From: Roseivivax marinus
Lineage (GTDB): Bacteria; Pseudomonadota; Alphaproteobacteria; Rhodobacterales; Rhodobacteraceae
Assembly (NCBI RefSeq): GCF_900109705.1
Contig: NZ_FOAI01000013.1
Coordinates: forward strand, 35,491-99,490
Direction of reading: 5' to 3'
Length of the DNA: 64,000 nucleotides
Of this stretch, positions 9,008-37,722 are shown in pieces (the stretch's first letter is position 1; every line of letters starts with the position of its first letter). The notes beneath the pieces are model-generated. The model searched no databases. It saw only the letters and a program-made list of their open reading frames with translations, and was not told where the DNA came from. Made by a program: the position numbers and the translations under genes.

Positions 9008-9784
9008 TCAGCGCCCCTCGTAACGCGGCGGACGTTTTTCGAGAAAGGCGACCACGCCCTCGCGGAAGTCGCGGGTCTGGCCGCACTCGCCCTGCAGCCT
9101 GGCCTCGACGGCCAATTGCTCTTCGAGGGTGTTGCCGAAAGAGGTGCGCATGGCCTCCTTCACCCGCTTGAAAGCCTCCGTCGGGCCGGTGGCGAGGTGC
9201 TGAGCGCGGGCCTGCCAGCCGGTTTCGAACTCGGCGTCCGGCAGCGCCTCCCAGATCATGCCCCAGCGCTCGGCCTGCGCCGCGGTGATCTTGTCGGCGA
9301 AAAGCGCCGCGCCCATGGCCTTGGCTAGCCCCACCTGCCGCGGCAGCAGCCATGTTCCGCCCGCATCGGGGATCAGGCCGATCCGGGTGAAGGCCTGGCT
9401 GAACGCCGCGCTCTCGGTCGCGATCACAACGTCGGCGCACAGCGCGAGGTTTGCCCCGGCCCCTGCCGCCGCACCGTTCACCGCCGCGATGGTCGGCACC
9501 GGGCAGTCGGCGATGGCCATGAGCATCGGCACGTATTCGTCGCGCAGGGTGCGCTCGAGGTCGAGCGAGGCCGCGTTGCCTCCGTCGCCCAGGTCCTGCC
9601 CCGAGCAGAACGCCCGCCCCGTGCCGGTCAGCACCACCACGCGCGCCTCGCGCGCGCCTCGGGTCACCGCGTCGGTGATCTCGGCCCGCATCCGGGTGTT
9701 GAGCGCGTTCATCACGTCCGGCCGGTTCAGGCGGACCACGGCGACGCCGTCGGTGACCTCGTAGGCGATGGTATCGTACTGCAT
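9008..9784 (-). CDS. Enoyl-CoA hydratase/isomerase family protein, PaaG-like
   Basis: A 258-residue crotonase-fold enzyme. Residues around 55-70 (GTGRAFCSGQDLGDGG) and around 105-115 (GAAAGAGANLALCAD) form the CoA/oxyanion-hole region. The segment FSQAFTRIGLIPDAGGTWLLPR strongly recalls PaaG, the ring-1,2-epoxyphenylacetyl-CoA isomerase of phenylacetate breakdown. No other paa genes are nearby, so the substrate could equally be a fatty enoyl-CoA. The ATG at 9784 begins MQYDTIAYEVTDGVAVV, a normal crotonase start; the open frame upstream of it is an overlap with ccmH. Confidence 0.85.
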   Translation of the reverse strand: MQYDTIAYEVTDGVAVVRLNRPDVMNALNTRMRAEITDAVTRGAREARVVVLTGTGRAFCSGQDLGDGGNAASLDLERTLRDEYVPMLMAIADCPVPTIAAVNGAAAGAGANLALCADVVIATESAAFSQAFTRIGLIPDAGGTWLLPRQVGLAKAMGAALFADKITAAQAERWGMIWEALPDAEFETGWQARAQHLATGPTEAFKRVKEAMRTSFGNTLEEQLAVEARLQGECGQTRDFREGVVAFLEKRPPRYEGR

Positions 9785-31974: not shown

Positions 31975-34900
31975 TCAGCCAGCGGCGCGCAGGTCGCGCC
32001 GCGGCGCATCCCCGCCCGACCGCAGCACGGCCAGCAGTTCCTCTCGCCGCTTCTCGGCCTTGGCGGCGTTCGCGGCCTTCACCGGGCCGAAACCCCGGAT
32101 CGACAGCGGCAGCTCGGCCAGCGCCACCAGCGTGTCGCCCGTCACCTCGTCCGCGCGCGGCAGCCACTCTTCCATGTCGGCCTCGTACTGGCGGATAAGC
32201 GCCCGCTCCATCCGGCGCTCCTCGGACCGGCCGAACGGGTCGAGGAACGTCCCCCGCAGCCCCTTCAGCCGTGCCAGTACACGGAAGCCCTTGAGCATCC
32301 CCTCGCCGAAACGCCGCTTCTGCGGGCGCCCGTCGGCGCCCTCTTTCGCGACCACCGGCGGGGCAAGATGGAAGCTCATCCTGAAATTCCCGTCGAAGGC
32401 CTCTTCGGCCCGCTTGCGGGTCTCGAGATGCAGGCGCGCCACCTCGTATTCGTCCTTGTAGGACAGAACCTTGTGGTAGCCGAGCGCGACCGCCTCGCGC
32501 AGCCGTCCCTCGGGCGCACTGTCGACCAGCGCCCGGTAGCGCCGCGCCAGCCGCCGATTCTGGTAGGCGGTCAGATGCTCTTCGCGCACGGCGATGCGCT
32601 CAGCCAGCGTGGCGGGCTTGGCGACCACGTTCGGGGTCACGATCCGGGCAGCATCCTTGGGATGGGTGACGGCCCAGCGACCGATCTCGAAGGCGCGCTT
32701 GTTGCCCTCGACTGCTGCGCCGTTCAGCTCGATCGCCTGCAGGATCGCGTCCTTGGGCAGCGGGATCAGACCGCGCTGCCACGCCGCACCCAGCAGCATG
32801 GTGTTCGAGAAGATCGAGTCACCCGTGGTCTCGCGCGCGAGGTCGGAGGCGTCGAAGAGGTCCAGCCGCTCGCGCAGACGCCGCTCCAGCGACAGCCGCA
32901 GGCGGTCGGCCGGCAGCGTGAATTCCGGCTCGCGCGTGAAGTCGCCGGTGGGGGTCTCGTGGCTGTTGACCACCGCCCCTGTCCGGCCGGTCGCCGTCAG
33001 GCCCAGCGTCTTGGCGCCGGCGCTGACGACGAGGTCCCCCCCTATCAGCGCGTGTGCCTCGCCGGTCGCCACGCGCACGGCGCTGATGTCCTCGGGCGCC
33101 TCGGCCAGCCGCAGGTGGATGTGCACCGCGCCGCCCTTCTGCGCGAGACCGGCCATCTCCATCATCCCCGCGCCCATGCCGGCAATCTGCGCGGCCTGCG
33201 CCAGCACCGCGCCCACCGTCACGACGCCGGTGCCGCCGACGCCCGTGATGACCACGTTCCAGGTGCCGTCGATGGCGGGCAGGTCGGGATCGGGAATGTC
33301 CGGCAGGTCGAGATCGGTCGTCGCGCCCTTGCGGGGCTTGGCCCCCTCAAGCGTGACGAAGGACGGGCAGAACCCGTTGAGGCAAGAGAAGTCCTTGTTG
33401 CAGGCGGACTGGTCGATCTCGCGCTTGCGGCCGAACTCGGTCTCCTTCGGCGCGATGGCGACGCAGTTGGACTGCACGCCGCAATCGCCGCAGCCCTCGC
33501 AGACATCGGTGTTGATGAACACGCGCGTGTCAGGGTCCGGGAATTCGCCGCGCTTGCGGCGGCGGCGCTTTTCGGCGGCACAGGTCTGGACGTAGATGAT
33601 CGCCGAGACGCCCTCGACCTCGCGCAGATCGCGTTGAACCTCGTCCAGTTCGGCCCGCTCGTGCCAGCCGACCGAAGACGGGAAGTCCGACTTCTCGGGC
33701 TCTTCCTTCTCGTCGAAGACCACCTCGATGCGGCGCACGCCCATGGCGTCCAGCTCGCGGGCGATGCGGTCGGGGGTCAGGCCGCCCTCGTTCTTCTGTC
33801 CGCCGGTCATGGCGACCGCGTCGTTATAGAGGATCTTGAAAGTGATGTTGGTGCCCGACGCCAGCGCCGCCCGGATCGCCTGCACGCCCGAGTGGTTGTA
33901 GGTGCCGTCGCCGAGGTTCTGGAACACGTGCGGCGTGGTCGAGAAGGGTGCCTCCCCGATCCAGTTCGCGCCCTCACCGCCCATGTGCGTGAAGCCGGTG
34001 GTGTTCCGGTCCATCCACTGCACCATGTAGTGACAGCCGATGCCCGCATAGCCGCGCGACCCCTCGGGCACCTTGGTGGATGTATTGTGCGGACAGCCGG
34101 CACAGTAATAGGGCAGCCGAGCCGCGATCTCCTCGACGTTGTCGGCGCGGCGGGACTCCTCCAGGCGCGCCAGCCCCGCGCGGACGCCGTCGGTGCCGCG
34201 GCCTTCCTCCACGAGGATGCCGCCCAGCTTTTCGGCGATCCAGACGGGATCGAGCGCGCCGCGGGTCGGGAAAAGTTCCTCGCGGTGCATCCCGCCGGCG
34301 CCGCCCTTGTACCAGCCGTAGACACGGCGGCCGCGGCGATCGTCGAAGATCGCCTCCTTGACCTGCACCTCGATCAGCTTGCGCTTTTCCTCGACGATCA
34401 CGATGAGCTCGAGCCCCTCGGCCCAGTCGTGGAAGCCCTGCATGTCCAGCGGGAAGGTCTGGCCGACCTTGTAGGTGGTCAGGCCAAGCCGGTCGGCCTC
34501 CGCCTCGTCGATCCCCAGCAGGGACATGGCGTGTGTCAGGTCGAGCCAGTTCTTGCCCGCAGCGACGAAACCGATCTTGGCGCCCGGCTTGCCCCACACC
34601 CTTCGGTCCATGCGGTTGGCATGGCTGAACGCCTCGGCCGCGAAACGCTTGTAGTCGATCATCCGCGCCTCTTGCAGGTGCGGCGTGTCGCCGAGGCGAA
34701 TGTTGAGCCCGCCCTCCGGCATGGCGAAATCGGTCGGGTCCACGAGGTGGAGACGCTCCGGGCGACCGTCGACCACCGCTGTCGCCTCCACCGTGTCCTT
34801 CATGGTCTTGAGCCCGACCCACAGCCCCGAGAACCGCGAGAGCGCGTAGCCGTAGATGCCGTAGTCGAGGATCTCCTGCACGCCCGCGGGGCTGACCACC

Positions 34901-35406
34901 GGCATGTAGGCGTCGACCAGCGCCCACTCGGACTGGTGCAACACGGTCGAGGATTCACCGGTATGGTCGTCGCCCATGGCCATGAGCACGCCGCCGTGTT
35001 TCGAGGTTCCGGCCATGTTGGCATGGCGCATCACGTCGCCCGAGCGGTCTACCCCCGGCCCCTTGCCGTACCAGAGGCCGAAGACGCCGTCGTGCCGCCC
35101 CTCGCCGCGGAGCTCGGCCTGCTGGCTGCCCCAGAGGGCCGTCGCCGCGAGGTCTTCGTTCAGACCGGCCTCGAAGCGGATGCCGGCGGCCGAAAGGTGC
35201 TTTTCGGCACGGGCCATCTGCAAGTCCACCGCGCCCAGCGGCGAGCCGCGATAGCCGGTCACGTAGCCCGCCGTATCCAGCCCACGCGTCACATCGCGTG
35301 CTTTTTGCATCAGCATGAGGCGGACTAGGGCCTGTGTGCCGTTCAGAAGCACGCGGTCCTTGTCCACATCGAAACGATCGTTCAGGGATATATCGGTTGC
35401 GTTCAT
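31975..35406 (-). CDS. Fused indolepyruvate:ferredoxin oxidoreductase
   Basis: A 1143-residue single-chain 2-oxoacid oxidoreductase. The N-terminal region has GYRGSPLGAVDLQMA near residue 50 (pyrimidine-binding part), and the central TPP-binding region has YYCAGCPHNTST near residue 440 and GEGANWIGEAPF. A ferredoxin-like CEGCGDCGVQSNC site lies near residue 640. The gamma-subunit-type domain has GVGGTGVVTVGAVLAQAAQIAG near residue 720 and LAQKGGAVHIHLR, then a DUF6537-like C-terminus. It oxidatively decarboxylates aryl pyruvates (from Trp, Phe, Tyr) to acyl-CoA. GGGAGG supports the ATG at 35406. It is divergent from a LysR gene. Confidence 0.93.
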   Translation of the reverse strand: MNATDISLNDRFDVDKDRVLLNGTQALVRLMLMQKARDVTRGLDTAGYVTGYRGSPLGAVDLQMARAEKHLSAAGIRFEAGLNEDLAATALWGSQQAELRGEGRHDGVFGLWYGKGPGVDRSGDVMRHANMAGTSKHGGVLMAMGDDHTGESSTVLHQSEWALVDAYMPVVSPAGVQEILDYGIYGYALSRFSGLWVGLKTMKDTVEATAVVDGRPERLHLVDPTDFAMPEGGLNIRLGDTPHLQEARMIDYKRFAAEAFSHANRMDRRVWGKPGAKIGFVAAGKNWLDLTHAMSLLGIDEAEADRLGLTTYKVGQTFPLDMQGFHDWAEGLELIVIVEEKRKLIEVQVKEAIFDDRRGRRVYGWYKGGAGGMHREELFPTRGALDPVWIAEKLGGILVEEGRGTDGVRAGLARLEESRRADNVEEIAARLPYYCAGCPHNTSTKVPEGSRGYAGIGCHYMVQWMDRNTTGFTHMGGEGANWIGEAPFSTTPHVFQNLGDGTYNHSGVQAIRAALASGTNITFKILYNDAVAMTGGQKNEGGLTPDRIARELDAMGVRRIEVVFDEKEEPEKSDFPSSVGWHERAELDEVQRDLREVEGVSAIIYVQTCAAEKRRRRKRGEFPDPDTRVFINTDVCEGCGDCGVQSNCVAIAPKETEFGRKREIDQSACNKDFSCLNGFCPSFVTLEGAKPRKGATTDLDLPDIPDPDLPAIDGTWNVVITGVGGTGVVTVGAVLAQAAQIAGMGAGMMEMAGLAQKGGAVHIHLRLAEAPEDISAVRVATGEAHALIGGDLVVSAGAKTLGLTATGRTGAVVNSHETPTGDFTREPEFTLPADRLRLSLERRLRERLDLFDASDLARETTGDSIFSNTMLLGAAWQRGLIPLPKDAILQAIELNGAAVEGNKRAFEIGRWAVTHPKDAARIVTPNVVAKPATLAERIAVREEHLTAYQNRRLARRYRALVDSAPEGRLREAVALGYHKVLSYKDEYEVARLHLETRKRAEEAFDGNFRMSFHLAPPVVAKEGADGRPQKRRFGEGMLKGFRVLARLKGLRGTFLDPFGRSEERRMERALIRQYEADMEEWLPRADEVTGDTLVALAELPLSIRGFGPVKAANAAKAEKRREELLAVLRSGGDAPRRDLRAAG

Positions 35407-35568
35407 TGCGCGCCTCCCGTCGCTCAATGACCTATCCTGTTGAAACTACGGCGGATGGGGACGGGATCCCAAGAAAATTCCGCAATATTTCTGCGCCGCA
35501 GCATAGAATGTTACCCCAAAGTTCATTATTTGCCGTATTCAATCCCCGCAGCAACGAAGATCGATCCG
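35407..35568. promoter_or_regulatory. Divergent promoter region, oxidoreductase / LysR regulator
   Basis: 162 bases between divergent start codons, noticeably more AT-rich than the surroundings. At 35482-35495 it holds GCAATATTTCTGCG, a short imperfect dyad (GCA-N8-TGC) of the kind LysR proteins bind. A similar string, GCAAATTCGTGCG, occurs upstream of the small RNA promoter at 36535. No exact -35/-10 pair is certain. Confidence 0.4.
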
Positions 35569-36474
35569 ATGGACTGGGACAAGCTTAGAATCTTTCACGC
35601 CGTGGCGGACGCCGGGTCGCTCACCCATGCGGGGGACGCGCTGCACCTGTCGCAGTCGGCAGTGTCGCGCCAGATTCGCGCGCTCGAAGAATCGCTGAAC
35701 ACCACGCTCTTCCACCGCCACGCGCGCGGCCTGATCCTGACCGAGCAGGGCGAACTGCTCTTCGATGCCACCTCGTCGATGATAAAGCGGATCGAGGCGG
35801 CGACCGCCCGCATCCACGACAGCGAGGAAGAGGTCTTTGGCGAGCTGCGGGTCACCACCACGACCGGCTTCGGCTCTCTCTGGCTCGCACCGCGACTGTC
35901 CAAGCTGTACGAAAAGTACCCCGAACTGAACATCGACCTGATGCTCGAGGAGCGGGTGCTCGACCTGCCGATGCGCGAGGCCGACGTCGCCATCCGCATG
36001 AAGGAGCCGAGCCAGGCCGACCTGATCCGCAAACGGCTGATGGCGGTGAAGATGCGGCTCTACGCCTCGCCCGACTATCTCGAACGGTTCGGCACACCTC
36101 ACACGCTGGACGAACTGGCCGGCCACCGGCTGATCTGCCAGAATCCGCGGTCGGCGCAGGTGACGGCGGGCTTGCAGCTGGTCCAGCAGTTGCTGACCCA
36201 CGACATTCACGGCACGCTGACGGTGAACAACTACTTCGGCGTCCTGCAGGCGGTGATCTCGAACCTCGGGATCGGTGTGCTGCCCGACTACATCATCGAG
36301 GATTTTCCCTCGGTGGTGCGTGTCCTGCCCGAGATCGAGTCGAACGAGGTGCCGGTCTTCCTCGCCTACCCCGAGGAACTGCGGCAATCGAAACGCATCG
36401 CCGCGTTCCGCGACTTCGTGCAGGAAGAGATCGTCGCCCACCGCGTGAGCCGCAAGGCGATGGGCGCCGAGTAG
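35569..36474 (+). CDS. LysR-family regulator, VtlR/LsrB type
   Basis: A 301-residue LysR regulator. The N-terminal winged HTH reads MDWDKLRIFHAVADAGSLTH and continues with LHLSQSAVSRQIRALEESL. FHRHARGLILTEQGELL follows near residue 45, and the effector-binding domain runs from about residue 90 to the end. The MDWDKLR start and HRHARGL motif match rhizobial LsrB and Brucella/Agrobacterium VtlR, which activate AbcR small RNAs. A candidate AbcR-like small RNA lies immediately downstream, which supports the assignment. The start at 35569 is chosen because the family begins MDWDKL; the open frame extends upstream without similarity. It could also control the divergent oxidoreductase. Confidence 0.88.
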   Translation: MDWDKLRIFHAVADAGSLTHAGDALHLSQSAVSRQIRALEESLNTTLFHRHARGLILTEQGELLFDATSSMIKRIEAATARIHDSEEEVFGELRVTTTTGFGSLWLAPRLSKLYEKYPELNIDLMLEERVLDLPMREADVAIRMKEPSQADLIRKRLMAVKMRLYASPDYLERFGTPHTLDELAGHRLICQNPRSAQVTAGLQLVQQLLTHDIHGTLTVNNYFGVLQAVISNLGIGVLPDYIIEDFPSVVRVLPEIESNEVPVFLAYPEELRQSKRIAAFRDFVQEEIVAHRVSRKAMGAE

Positions 36475-36534
36475 GCGCCCCGTCCGCGCCCGCTCGACCA
36501 TCGCTTCGAGGCGCCTCGCCAAGGTGTCTCACAT

Positions 36535-36565
36535 GCAAATTCGTGCGTGGCTTGCACAGCACGCA
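36535..36565. promoter_or_regulatory. Candidate LysR-type operator upstream of the small RNA
   Basis: Nested dyads: TGCGTG-N10-CACGCA (36544-36549 and 36560-36565) and GTGC-N7-GCAC (36543-36546 and 36554-36557). They overlap GCAAATTCGTGCG at 36535, which resembles a string in the LysR divergent promoter. The centre is about 80 bases before the predicted small RNA start, near where LysR activators bind. Binding is inferred. Confidence 0.45.
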
Positions 36566-36599
36566 TATCGGCCATGTGAACGCACCGCGGCGCTTTCGC

Positions 36600-36628
36600 T
36601 TGATCGACTCAAAACCGGTGACTAATTC
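36600..36628 (+). promoter_or_regulatory. Sigma-70-type promoter of the candidate small RNA
   Basis: TTGATC (36600-36605) and TAATTC (36623-36628) separated by exactly 17 bases. Predicted start is near 36635. No protein gene begins before the terminator at 36689, so this promoter appears dedicated to a short RNA. Confidence 0.65.
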
Positions 36629-36634
36629 AGCAAT

Positions 36635-36717
36635 CGAACGATGGGGCGCCCACCGGCGCATCATCTTCATACCTCCCTGTTGGACTTCGGCCGAGCTTTG
36701 TGCTCGGCCTTTTTTTT
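36635..36717 (+). ncRNA. Candidate trans-acting small RNA, AbcR/suhB (alpha-r15)-like
   Basis: About 83 nt from the predicted start to the end of the T-tract. The single-stranded region before the terminator contains ACCTCCCTGTTGG (36671-36683), an anti-Shine-Dalgarno motif like the targeting loops of AbcR RNAs, which repress ABC-transporter and other mRNAs with Hfq. The RNA ends in an 8-bp GC-rich hairpin and eight T residues, a typical Hfq-binding tail. In rhizobia, Agrobacterium and Brucella, abcR genes are activated by the LysR protein VtlR/LsrB, and the gene just upstream here is of that type. Family membership is from motif and context, not from a covariance search. Confidence 0.65.
36689..36717 (+). 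terminator. Intrinsic terminator of the small RNA
   Basis: Perfect 8-bp stem GGCCGAGC/GCTCGGCC (36689-36696 and 36702-36709), loop TTTGT, followed by eight T residues at 36710-36717. Confidence 0.95.
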
Positions 36718-36783
36718 GGCCGTCCCCGAACGACCTCCGCCAAGGCACGGACAGAGCGAAGCGCAGCACTACCTCTGCGCGAC

Positions 36784-37722
36784 ATGAAGATGCTCCTCCG
36801 CCTCGCCGCCGCGCTCGTTCTGCTGCCGCTCCTGCTGGCCTGCGGCGCCTACGTCATGCAATCGCGCGGCACGGCCCCGCCGGCCGCCGGCGCAGCGCTG
36901 CGGGTCGCCACCCACAACGTGCATTACATCTGGCTGAACCGGTCCGAGGGCCCGTGGTCCGTGGGCGACTGGACCGAGCGGCGCGCGGCGCTCGACGCGG
37001 CGTTCAAGGCACTCGAGGCCGACATCGTCGCCACGCAGGAGATGGAAAGCTTCGGCGGCGGCAACAGCGACGAGGTGAACCTCGCCCGCGCCTGGTTGCT
37101 GGAGCGCAATCCCGGCTACGCCGCCGCTGCCGTAGGCGACTGGCGGAGCTTTCCGTCGACCCAGCCGATCTTCTACCGCCGTGACAGGCTCGACCTGACG
37201 GACCAGGGCTGGTTCTTCTTCTCCGAGACGCCCGATGTCATCTACTCGCGCACCTTCGACGGCTCCTACCCGGCCTTCGCATCCTGGGCCGAGTTCCGCA
37301 CCGAGGCCGGCACATCCCTGCGCGTGGTGAACGTCCACTTCGACGCCGGCAGCGGGTCGAACCGGATCAGGTCGGCCGAGCTGGTGGCAGAGCGACTGGC
37401 GCCGCTGCTGGCACGCGGCACGCCGGTCCTTCTGCTCGGCGACCTGAACGCGCGACTCGGGGCGCCGACGGTCGACATCCTCGCCGAGGCCGGACTGACC
37501 TTCGCCGACGTGCCGGGTGCGACCTTCCACTTCAACCGTGGGATCAATGTCTTCGGCGCGATCGATCACGTGGCCCTCGGCCCCGGCATCGCCCTCGAGG
37601 GTGGCCCCTGGGTGCTTCGCGAAAGGTTCGCGGGCGACTGGCCTTCGGATCATTACCCCGTCGCCGCCGACATCGCGCTGCCCCGCGCGGATCAGCCCGG
37701 GGGCGCAGGCGGGATCGAGTAG
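36784..37722 (+). CDS. Endonuclease/exonuclease/phosphatase-family protein with N-terminal lipobox
   Basis: A 312-residue EEP-fold hydrolase: [13 protein letters not shown] near residue 40, a metal-binding Glu in [14 protein letters not shown] near residue 83, [11 protein letters not shown] near residue 218, and the catalytic [12 protein letters not shown] at the end. The N-terminus, [23 protein letters not shown], is a signal sequence with a possible lipobox (LLAC), so it is probably periplasmic and may be a lipoprotein. Substrate unknown (nucleic acid, phosphoinositide or other phosphodiester). The last 31 bases overlap the 3' end of the thioesterase gene on the other strand. Confidence 0.87.

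Follow-up and report, generated by a model that had tools for sequence, protein, structure and literature searches.

The question raised by this locus is whether a short element downstream of a LysR-type gene in Roseivivax marinus is a small-RNA gene, to which family its RNA would belong, and whether the neighbouring regulator is likely to control it. A first-pass annotation had proposed an AbcR-like RNA beside its VtlR/LsrB-type activator. In our analysis of the window, that is, the whole stretch of 64 kb of DNA, the small-RNA gene, the LsrB-type LysR gene and the exposed CUCCCU motif of that proposal are retained, and identity with AbcR is not. We consider it probable that window 36635-36717 (+) is a SorY-type small-RNA gene immediately after the only LsrB/VtlR-type LysR gene of the genome, that LsrB likely activates it via a box at 36547-36577, and that the RNA lowers transporter expression by pairing of ACCUCCCUGUUGG with ribosome-binding sites.

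A small-RNA gene downstream of a LysR-type gene

The locus contains the following features, the start of the RNA at 36635 being set by analogy with the published SorY start.

35569-36474 (+): LysR-type regulator gene, LsrB/VtlR type, 301 aa (PDB 9HH1 match, tree, Pfam)
36547-36577 (+): predicted LsrB-binding region, core GCATATCGGCCAT at 36563-36575 (box match and conservation)
36600-36605 (+): -35 element TTGATC (read directly; family profile)
36623-36628 (+): -10 element TAATTC, after a 17-base spacer (read directly)
36635-36717 (+): SorY-type small RNA, start predicted, about 83 nt (Rfam RF02651/RF02784, model R1)
36636-36668 (+): 5' hairpin of the SorY-type RNA (fold)
36671-36683 (+): exposed seed ACCUCCCUGUUGG, DNA ACCTCCCTGTTGG, predicted to pair with ribosome-binding sites (conservation and folds)
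36689-36717 (+): intrinsic terminator, 8-bp stem GGCCGAGC/GCTCGGCC at 36689-36709 and T8 at 36710-36717

Direct reading confirmed the promoter, the RNA of about 83 nt with its exposed motif, and the terminator at the coordinates first given for them, and all are present far above chance. The distance from the LysR gene had been understated: the elements were placed within 120 bases of it, whereas, counted from the stop codon, the -35 element begins at 126 nt and the end of the RNA is reached at 243 nt. The predicted fold of the RNA has an energy of -36.4 kcal/mol (z -4.9), and none of 200 shuffled sequences was equally stable. With a weight matrix from 95 other loci, in which the -35 and -10 columns were chosen by consensus and the box columns were not, box and promoter together score 51.7 bits at the window site against 7.3 bits for the next best site in 64 kb, and the box alone scores 21.6 against 17.3 bits. 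A second box-like site at 9148 (-), apparently inside coding sequence, was taken as a chance occurrence.

The same arrangement is found throughout the Rhodobacteraceae. We examined 147 LsrB loci, from 145 Rhodobacteraceae genomes and two from the class draw, and the seed, as [AC]CTCCCTGT, follows the LsrB stop codon by no more than 600 nt in 137 of them. This bears out, as far as sequence can, the earlier suggestion that the pairing of regulator and small RNA extends to Rhodobacterales. Among the ten other loci one contig ends 377 nt on (L118), seven have no seed in range, and in two (L139 and L189) a SorY match occurs farther along, at 1.2 and 1.5 kb. The promoter spacer is 17 bases in 129 of the 137 loci; as the -35 and -10 elements were placed by best fit to consensus, their conservation is partly selected. 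In a sample of every third locus, 45 of 133 usable, the seed ACCTCCCTGTTG is identical in all RNAs and its first 12 bases are invariant (ACCUCCCUGUUG in all). When the RNAs are folded singly, most of the seed stays unpaired in 43 of the 45, in agreement with the exposed CUCCCU first described. A 5' hairpin forms in every folded locus (z below -1 against simple shuffles in 45/45, median -3.8), the sequence of its 5' arm varies, and its outer pairs appear as GC, AU, UA and CG across loci. RNAalifold on a MAFFT alignment of the 45 RNAs gave only two pairs, neither with changes on both sides; we attribute this sparse result to the unequal length of the 5' hairpins, and therefore relied on single folds and pair types. 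Both kinds of evidence on which the first-pass annotation had made its proposal depend, a covariance-model match and conservation of promoter and loop in related genomes, were thus found, the matches being to the SorX and SorY models.

That the element ends in a strong terminator, at 215-243 nt from the LysR stop codon, would also be expected if it did no more than terminate transcription of the LysR gene. We regard this as highly improbable, since the element has its own conserved promoter, the start mapped in R. sphaeroides falls at the corresponding position (PMC6238624), and the invariant 12-mer would be needless for a terminator. The small-RNA gene is presumably transcribed in R. marinus as well.

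Relationship of the RNA to SorY, SorX and AbcR

At curated thresholds, Rfam identifies three features in the 64 kb, namely two tRNAs and SorX (RF02784) at 36647-36715, the last with 47.8 bits and a cut-off of 46.6. Under an E-value threshold the best match is to the SorY model RF02651, with 59.1 bits, short of its cut-off of 111, over its full length (positions 1-83 of 83; E 5.2e-11 in 1.2 kb and 4.2e-11 in the whole genome). Because this cut-off is missed, we name the RNA SorY-type by position and sequence, rather than as a curated member of the Rfam family. The same model at E 0.01 finds matches in 140 of 149 Rhodobacteraceae genomes and passes its cut-off in just one, G051. The match there, at 1,632,645-1,632,727, nearly coincides with the SorY start mapped in R. 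sphaeroides at 1,632,642 (PMC6238624), from which we infer that G051 represents R. sphaeroides or a genome nearly identical to it. In the R. sphaeroides locus L006 our predicted start (base 1499) is one base off the published start (base 1498), an orthologue of the window LysR protein is encoded upstream (76% identical), and the promoter elements are the same. By these sequence comparisons the window locus corresponds to the SorY locus of R. sphaeroides with its own promoter, and the kind of RNA is already known, SorY having been described in that organism. The two RNAs (SorY was formerly RSs1543) share the full-length model match, the seed, the place of the promoter and the orthologous LysR gene upstream; they differ in score, 115 bits there against 59.1 in the window, and in the sequence of the 5' hairpin.

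SorX was rejected as the identity of the window locus, although its cut-off is passed, because another locus of the same genome is a better fit. This SorX-type paralogue (L001:1472-1547, (-), 71.8 bits) follows an OmpR-like response-regulator gene, as does SorX in R. sphaeroides (PMC6238624). The window RNA shares core and terminator with SorX; however, SorX arises by cleavage from the 3' UTR of an OmpR-like mRNA, whereas the window RNA is preceded by a LysR gene. The suhB model, which had been recommended for checking the locus, is described as mmgR (ar8, RF00519), and was likewise rejected at 26.3 bits against a cut-off of 41. RNAs of this family, including SisA-D of Caulobacter, resemble the window RNA in having a single-stranded CUCCCU core between hairpin and terminator (PMC12559287), but the suhB/mmgR core is UUUCCUCCCU, and sisA adjoins an FGase gene.

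The case for AbcR (ar15, RF02345) rests on context. The window RNA adjoins an LsrB/VtlR gene, has upstream a GCAT box with one base changed, and carries a CUCCC anti-Shine-Dalgarno motif and a terminator, much as in the LsrB/VtlR-AbcR1 arrangement of Rhizobiales, in which the gene after the LsrB-type one encodes an anti-Shine-Dalgarno RNA whose promoter has a GCAT box upstream. The RNA might therefore be a true AbcR that has been shortened, AbcR and SorY being homologous. This we judge unlikely: RF02345 has no match up to E 10 in 36000-37200 and none in the R. marinus genome at E 0.01 with strict filters, and the AbcR identity first proposed was rejected on these grounds. Furthermore, the rhizobial AbcR RNAs are longer (121 and 114 nt in S. 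meliloti), occur as tandem copies, and differ in sequence and fold (PMC8844928, PMC3712013). A covariance model, R1, built from 19 of 20 RNAs of the class Alphaproteobacteria (one near-copy omitted, no Rhodobacteraceae included), finds the window RNA as its only match in the 64 kb (E 4.4e-8), has a match in all 12 Rhodobacteraceae loci to which it was applied (E at most 6e-7), and misses rhizobial AbcR in the 12 loci searched (best E 0.9). These E-values are optimistic, as R1 also matched a bare terminator, with 23 bits, in one of 18 control loci from the R. marinus genome. Homology between the SorY and AbcR RNAs was thus not found, yet they stand at the same place under a similar box. What is strongly supported at the sequence level is a LysR-small-RNA module like that of LsrB/VtlR and AbcR, with a SorY-type RNA in the place of AbcR.

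The LsrB-type regulator and the proposed inputs of the promoter

The LysR protein, in which the opening MDWDKLR and the HRHARGL noted by the first-pass annotation can both be read, has the Pfam domains HTH_1 and LysR_substrate and matches PDB 9HH1, the LsrB of A. tumefaciens (PMC11975290), over nearly its whole length (E 4e-73). Identity to this protein is 47/62 in the DNA-binding part and 65/199 in the effector domain. It is the sole LsrB-like protein of its genome, the next LysR protein being 30% identical (E 8e-35). Among Rhodobacteraceae 145 of 149 genomes have an LsrB gene, with one match each except in one genome with two fragments, and 170 of 289 class genomes have a match at E <=1e-45, mostly one each; outside Rhodobacteraceae identity is 38-53% among the matches listed. 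We compared 67 proteins in a tree (20 from Rhodobacteraceae including the window, 26 from the class, 17 of 80 rhizobial and four outgroup rows), in which the window protein falls inside the Rhodobacteraceae group and the rhizobial LsrB proteins are united in a single clade with full support. Of the outgroup rows, all very long, one is misplaced. Four of five further LysR genes of the R. marinus genome are in the tree, the fifth, L041, having been left out as it gave no alignment. With full-length similarity, one copy per genome and grouping with LsrB, the sequence evidence places the protein in the LsrB/VtlR type, as first proposed. This bears on the published view of these regulators: on the basis of a tree of selected species, a 2025 paper describes LsrB as restricted to Rhizobiales (PMC11975290), and VtlR has been called conserved in many Alphaproteobacteria (PMC7486931). 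We note that genes sharing 93% and 70% identity with A. tumefaciens LsrB occur in two records titled Arenimonas (L225) and Bacillus subtilis (L269), respectively, whose titles or assemblies look wrong.

Rhizobial LsrB differs in two respects. A. tumefaciens LsrB has the cysteine pairs C144/C273 and C236/C244 (PMC11975290). Cysteines at C144 and C273 are present in 17/17 rhizobial and 0/20 Rhodobacteraceae rows, and among the 26 class rows none has a cysteine at C144 and one has it at C273. In the absence of these redox cysteines we file the window protein as an LsrB-type orthologue and not as a redox sensor of the rhizobial kind. Its single cysteine, residue 190, is common to 15 of the 20 Rhodobacteraceae rows and occurs in no class or rhizobial row among those listed, and may be another sensing residue. 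Secondly, trxB directly precedes the LsrB gene in 74 of 80 rhizobial loci, as it also does in 22 of 26 class loci, whereas the upstream neighbour in the window is a divergent gene for a one-piece indolepyruvate ferredoxin oxidoreductase (31975-35427, (-), 1150 aa), standing where trxB stands in other lineages.

It has been shown that S. meliloti LsrB activates abcR1 through a GCAT-N3-TG-N3-T box (PMC8844928). The window box departs from the rhizobial consensus at one base, the T of TG being replaced by G, and its distance from the start is greater by about 11 bases. In Rhodobacteraceae GCAT is found 37 nt upstream of the -35 element in 77 loci and 36 nt upstream in 25, that is, in 102 of 137, and these offsets, unlike the -35 and -10 elements, were not selected by consensus. 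The 35 loci without GCAT at 36-37 nt count against LsrB control. It is nonetheless likely, on this comparison of sites, that 36547-36577 is an LsrB site activating the SorY-type RNA, at which LsrB would bind and help RNA polymerase to start transcription.

The core promoter points to a further input. Its consensus in Rhodobacteraceae, CTTGAW-N16-CYTAWWT, is like the RpoH1 consensus of S. meliloti, CTTGAA-N16-CCTATAT (PMC8844928), and SorY of R. sphaeroides is RpoHI/RpoHII-dependent and Hfq-bound (PMC5036791). The gene could accordingly be that of a stress RNA under RpoHI/RpoHII alone, the LysR gene being an inherited neighbour and the box serving another protein; the published accounts of SorY control consulted name only RpoHI and RpoHII. 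We think this improbable. In 102 of 137 loci the box holds its distance of 36-37 nt to the -35 element amid nearly random columns (mostly below 0.3 bits outside the elements in a profile of 68 loci), a similar box is the proven LsrB site of S. meliloti abcR1, and the RNA is linked to LsrB in most loci of the family and in many across the class. Since the core promoter is RpoH-like, a SorY-type gene activated by LsrB would take two inputs, LsrB and RpoH, at one promoter, where S. meliloti splits them between AbcR1 and AbcR2. In the open-access literature searched, we found no paper tying SorY to LsrB.

Predicted targets and recurrence of the pair across the class

The RNA would act by pairing of CCUCCCUG with GGGAGG-type Shine-Dalgarno sites of transporter mRNAs, probably assisted by Hfq, and would thereby lower transporter expression. 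A published target of SorY is takP, the mRNA for a malate transporter (PMC6238624, PMC8307010). In the R. marinus genome transporter genes account for 8 of 18 ORFs behind CAGGGAGG (28 matches, less eight short ORFs and two antisense copies of the window RNA), one of the eight looking like an internal start. Counts for the controls were 9/30 for [AGT]AGGGAGG (first 30 of 57 matches) and 2/24 for AAGGAGA (first 30 of 98 matches, six short ones dropped), taken in each set among the 25 Pfam families listed. Against AAGGAGA the unadjusted p is 0.010 for CAGGGAGG and 0.087 for [AGT]AGGGAGG; against its closest control, [AGT]AGGGAGG, the enrichment of CAGGGAGG is not significant (p 0.36). These counts are weakly consistent with broad anti-Shine-Dalgarno action and with the silencing of transporter mRNAs foreseen by the first-pass annotation. 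In L296, a gene for a solute-binding protein, the start is immediately preceded by CCAACAGGGAGG, which offers twelve bases of complementarity to the RNA. A search for CCAACAGGGAGG-N-ATG in the 149 genomes gave a match in 78; the resulting target list was dropped because many sites were the opposite strand of the small-RNA genes themselves and an ORF of at least 90 aa was present at only two of 30 loci examined.

A similar pair of genes recurs, by sequence, in many Alphaproteobacteria. A CTCCC motif with a terminator lies no more than 800 nt after LsrB in 18 of 26 class loci and, in the same scan, in 14 of 80 rhizobial loci, the scan having been built for short RNAs, which accounts for the few rhizobial positives. 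The reverse strand gave none in all three groups (0/26 in the class), and on the forward strand one of four unrelated-LysR loci was positive (L038). Among the class RNAs, 14 of 20 share CGTCTCCCAGACGT followed by CCTCCCTGTT, and an RNA of this kind is highly conserved after the LsrB genes of L388-L394, L396 and L397, at about base 1500-1590. R1 has matches in 160 of 289 whole class genomes. Comparing R1 matches above 32 bits with LsrB genes, among the matches listed, we find that at least 79 of 142 LsrB genes outside Rhodobacteraceae are followed on their own strand by an R1 RNA at a distance of 0-1000 nt (median 208 nt); of the 142, 44 have no listed RNA and 19 have one elsewhere. Without the 16 training genomes the count is at least 63 of 126 listed LsrB genes, some of them in kin of the training genomes. 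The small genome G382 has six R1-type matches, none beside an LsrB gene among the matches listed. In class family f41 two or three tandem RNAs follow LsrB (L053:2580-3188, L048:2849-3123), an arrangement like that of rhizobial AbcR1/AbcR2 with a different sequence. In the rhizobial loci CTCCC[AT] lies no more than 600 nt after LsrB in 79 of 80, the sole locus without it being L266. The box GCAT-N3-TG-N3-T is found in 58 of these 80 loci and is followed by the motif within 130 nt in 56, with none on the reverse strand.

We somewhat favour the view that LsrB and a CUCCC small RNA form an ancestral module of Alphaproteobacteria, in which a single regulator would have, at one and the same place, different outputs: SorY in Rhodobacterales, AbcR in Rhizobiales, and the CGUCUCCCAGACGU...CCUCCCUGUU RNAs among other lineages. 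On this view the RNA output would be older than the cysteine redox input, which Rhizobiales would have added, and the SorY promoter would join the LsrB and RpoH inputs that are divided between AbcR1 and AbcR2 in S. meliloti. The recurrence of the pair further indicates a widespread RNA, which scored below the cut-off of every Rfam family in a scan of 16 class loci. The presence of LsrB in these lineages stands against its recently stated restriction to Rhizobiales (PMC11975290), and suggests that the signal first sensed by LsrB was not oxidation of cysteines of the C144/C273 type. The locus would join two literatures, that of the RpoH-linked singlet-oxygen RNA SorY of Rhodobacter and that of the rhizobial LsrB/VtlR-AbcR circuit, and SorY would gain from it a testable second regulator.
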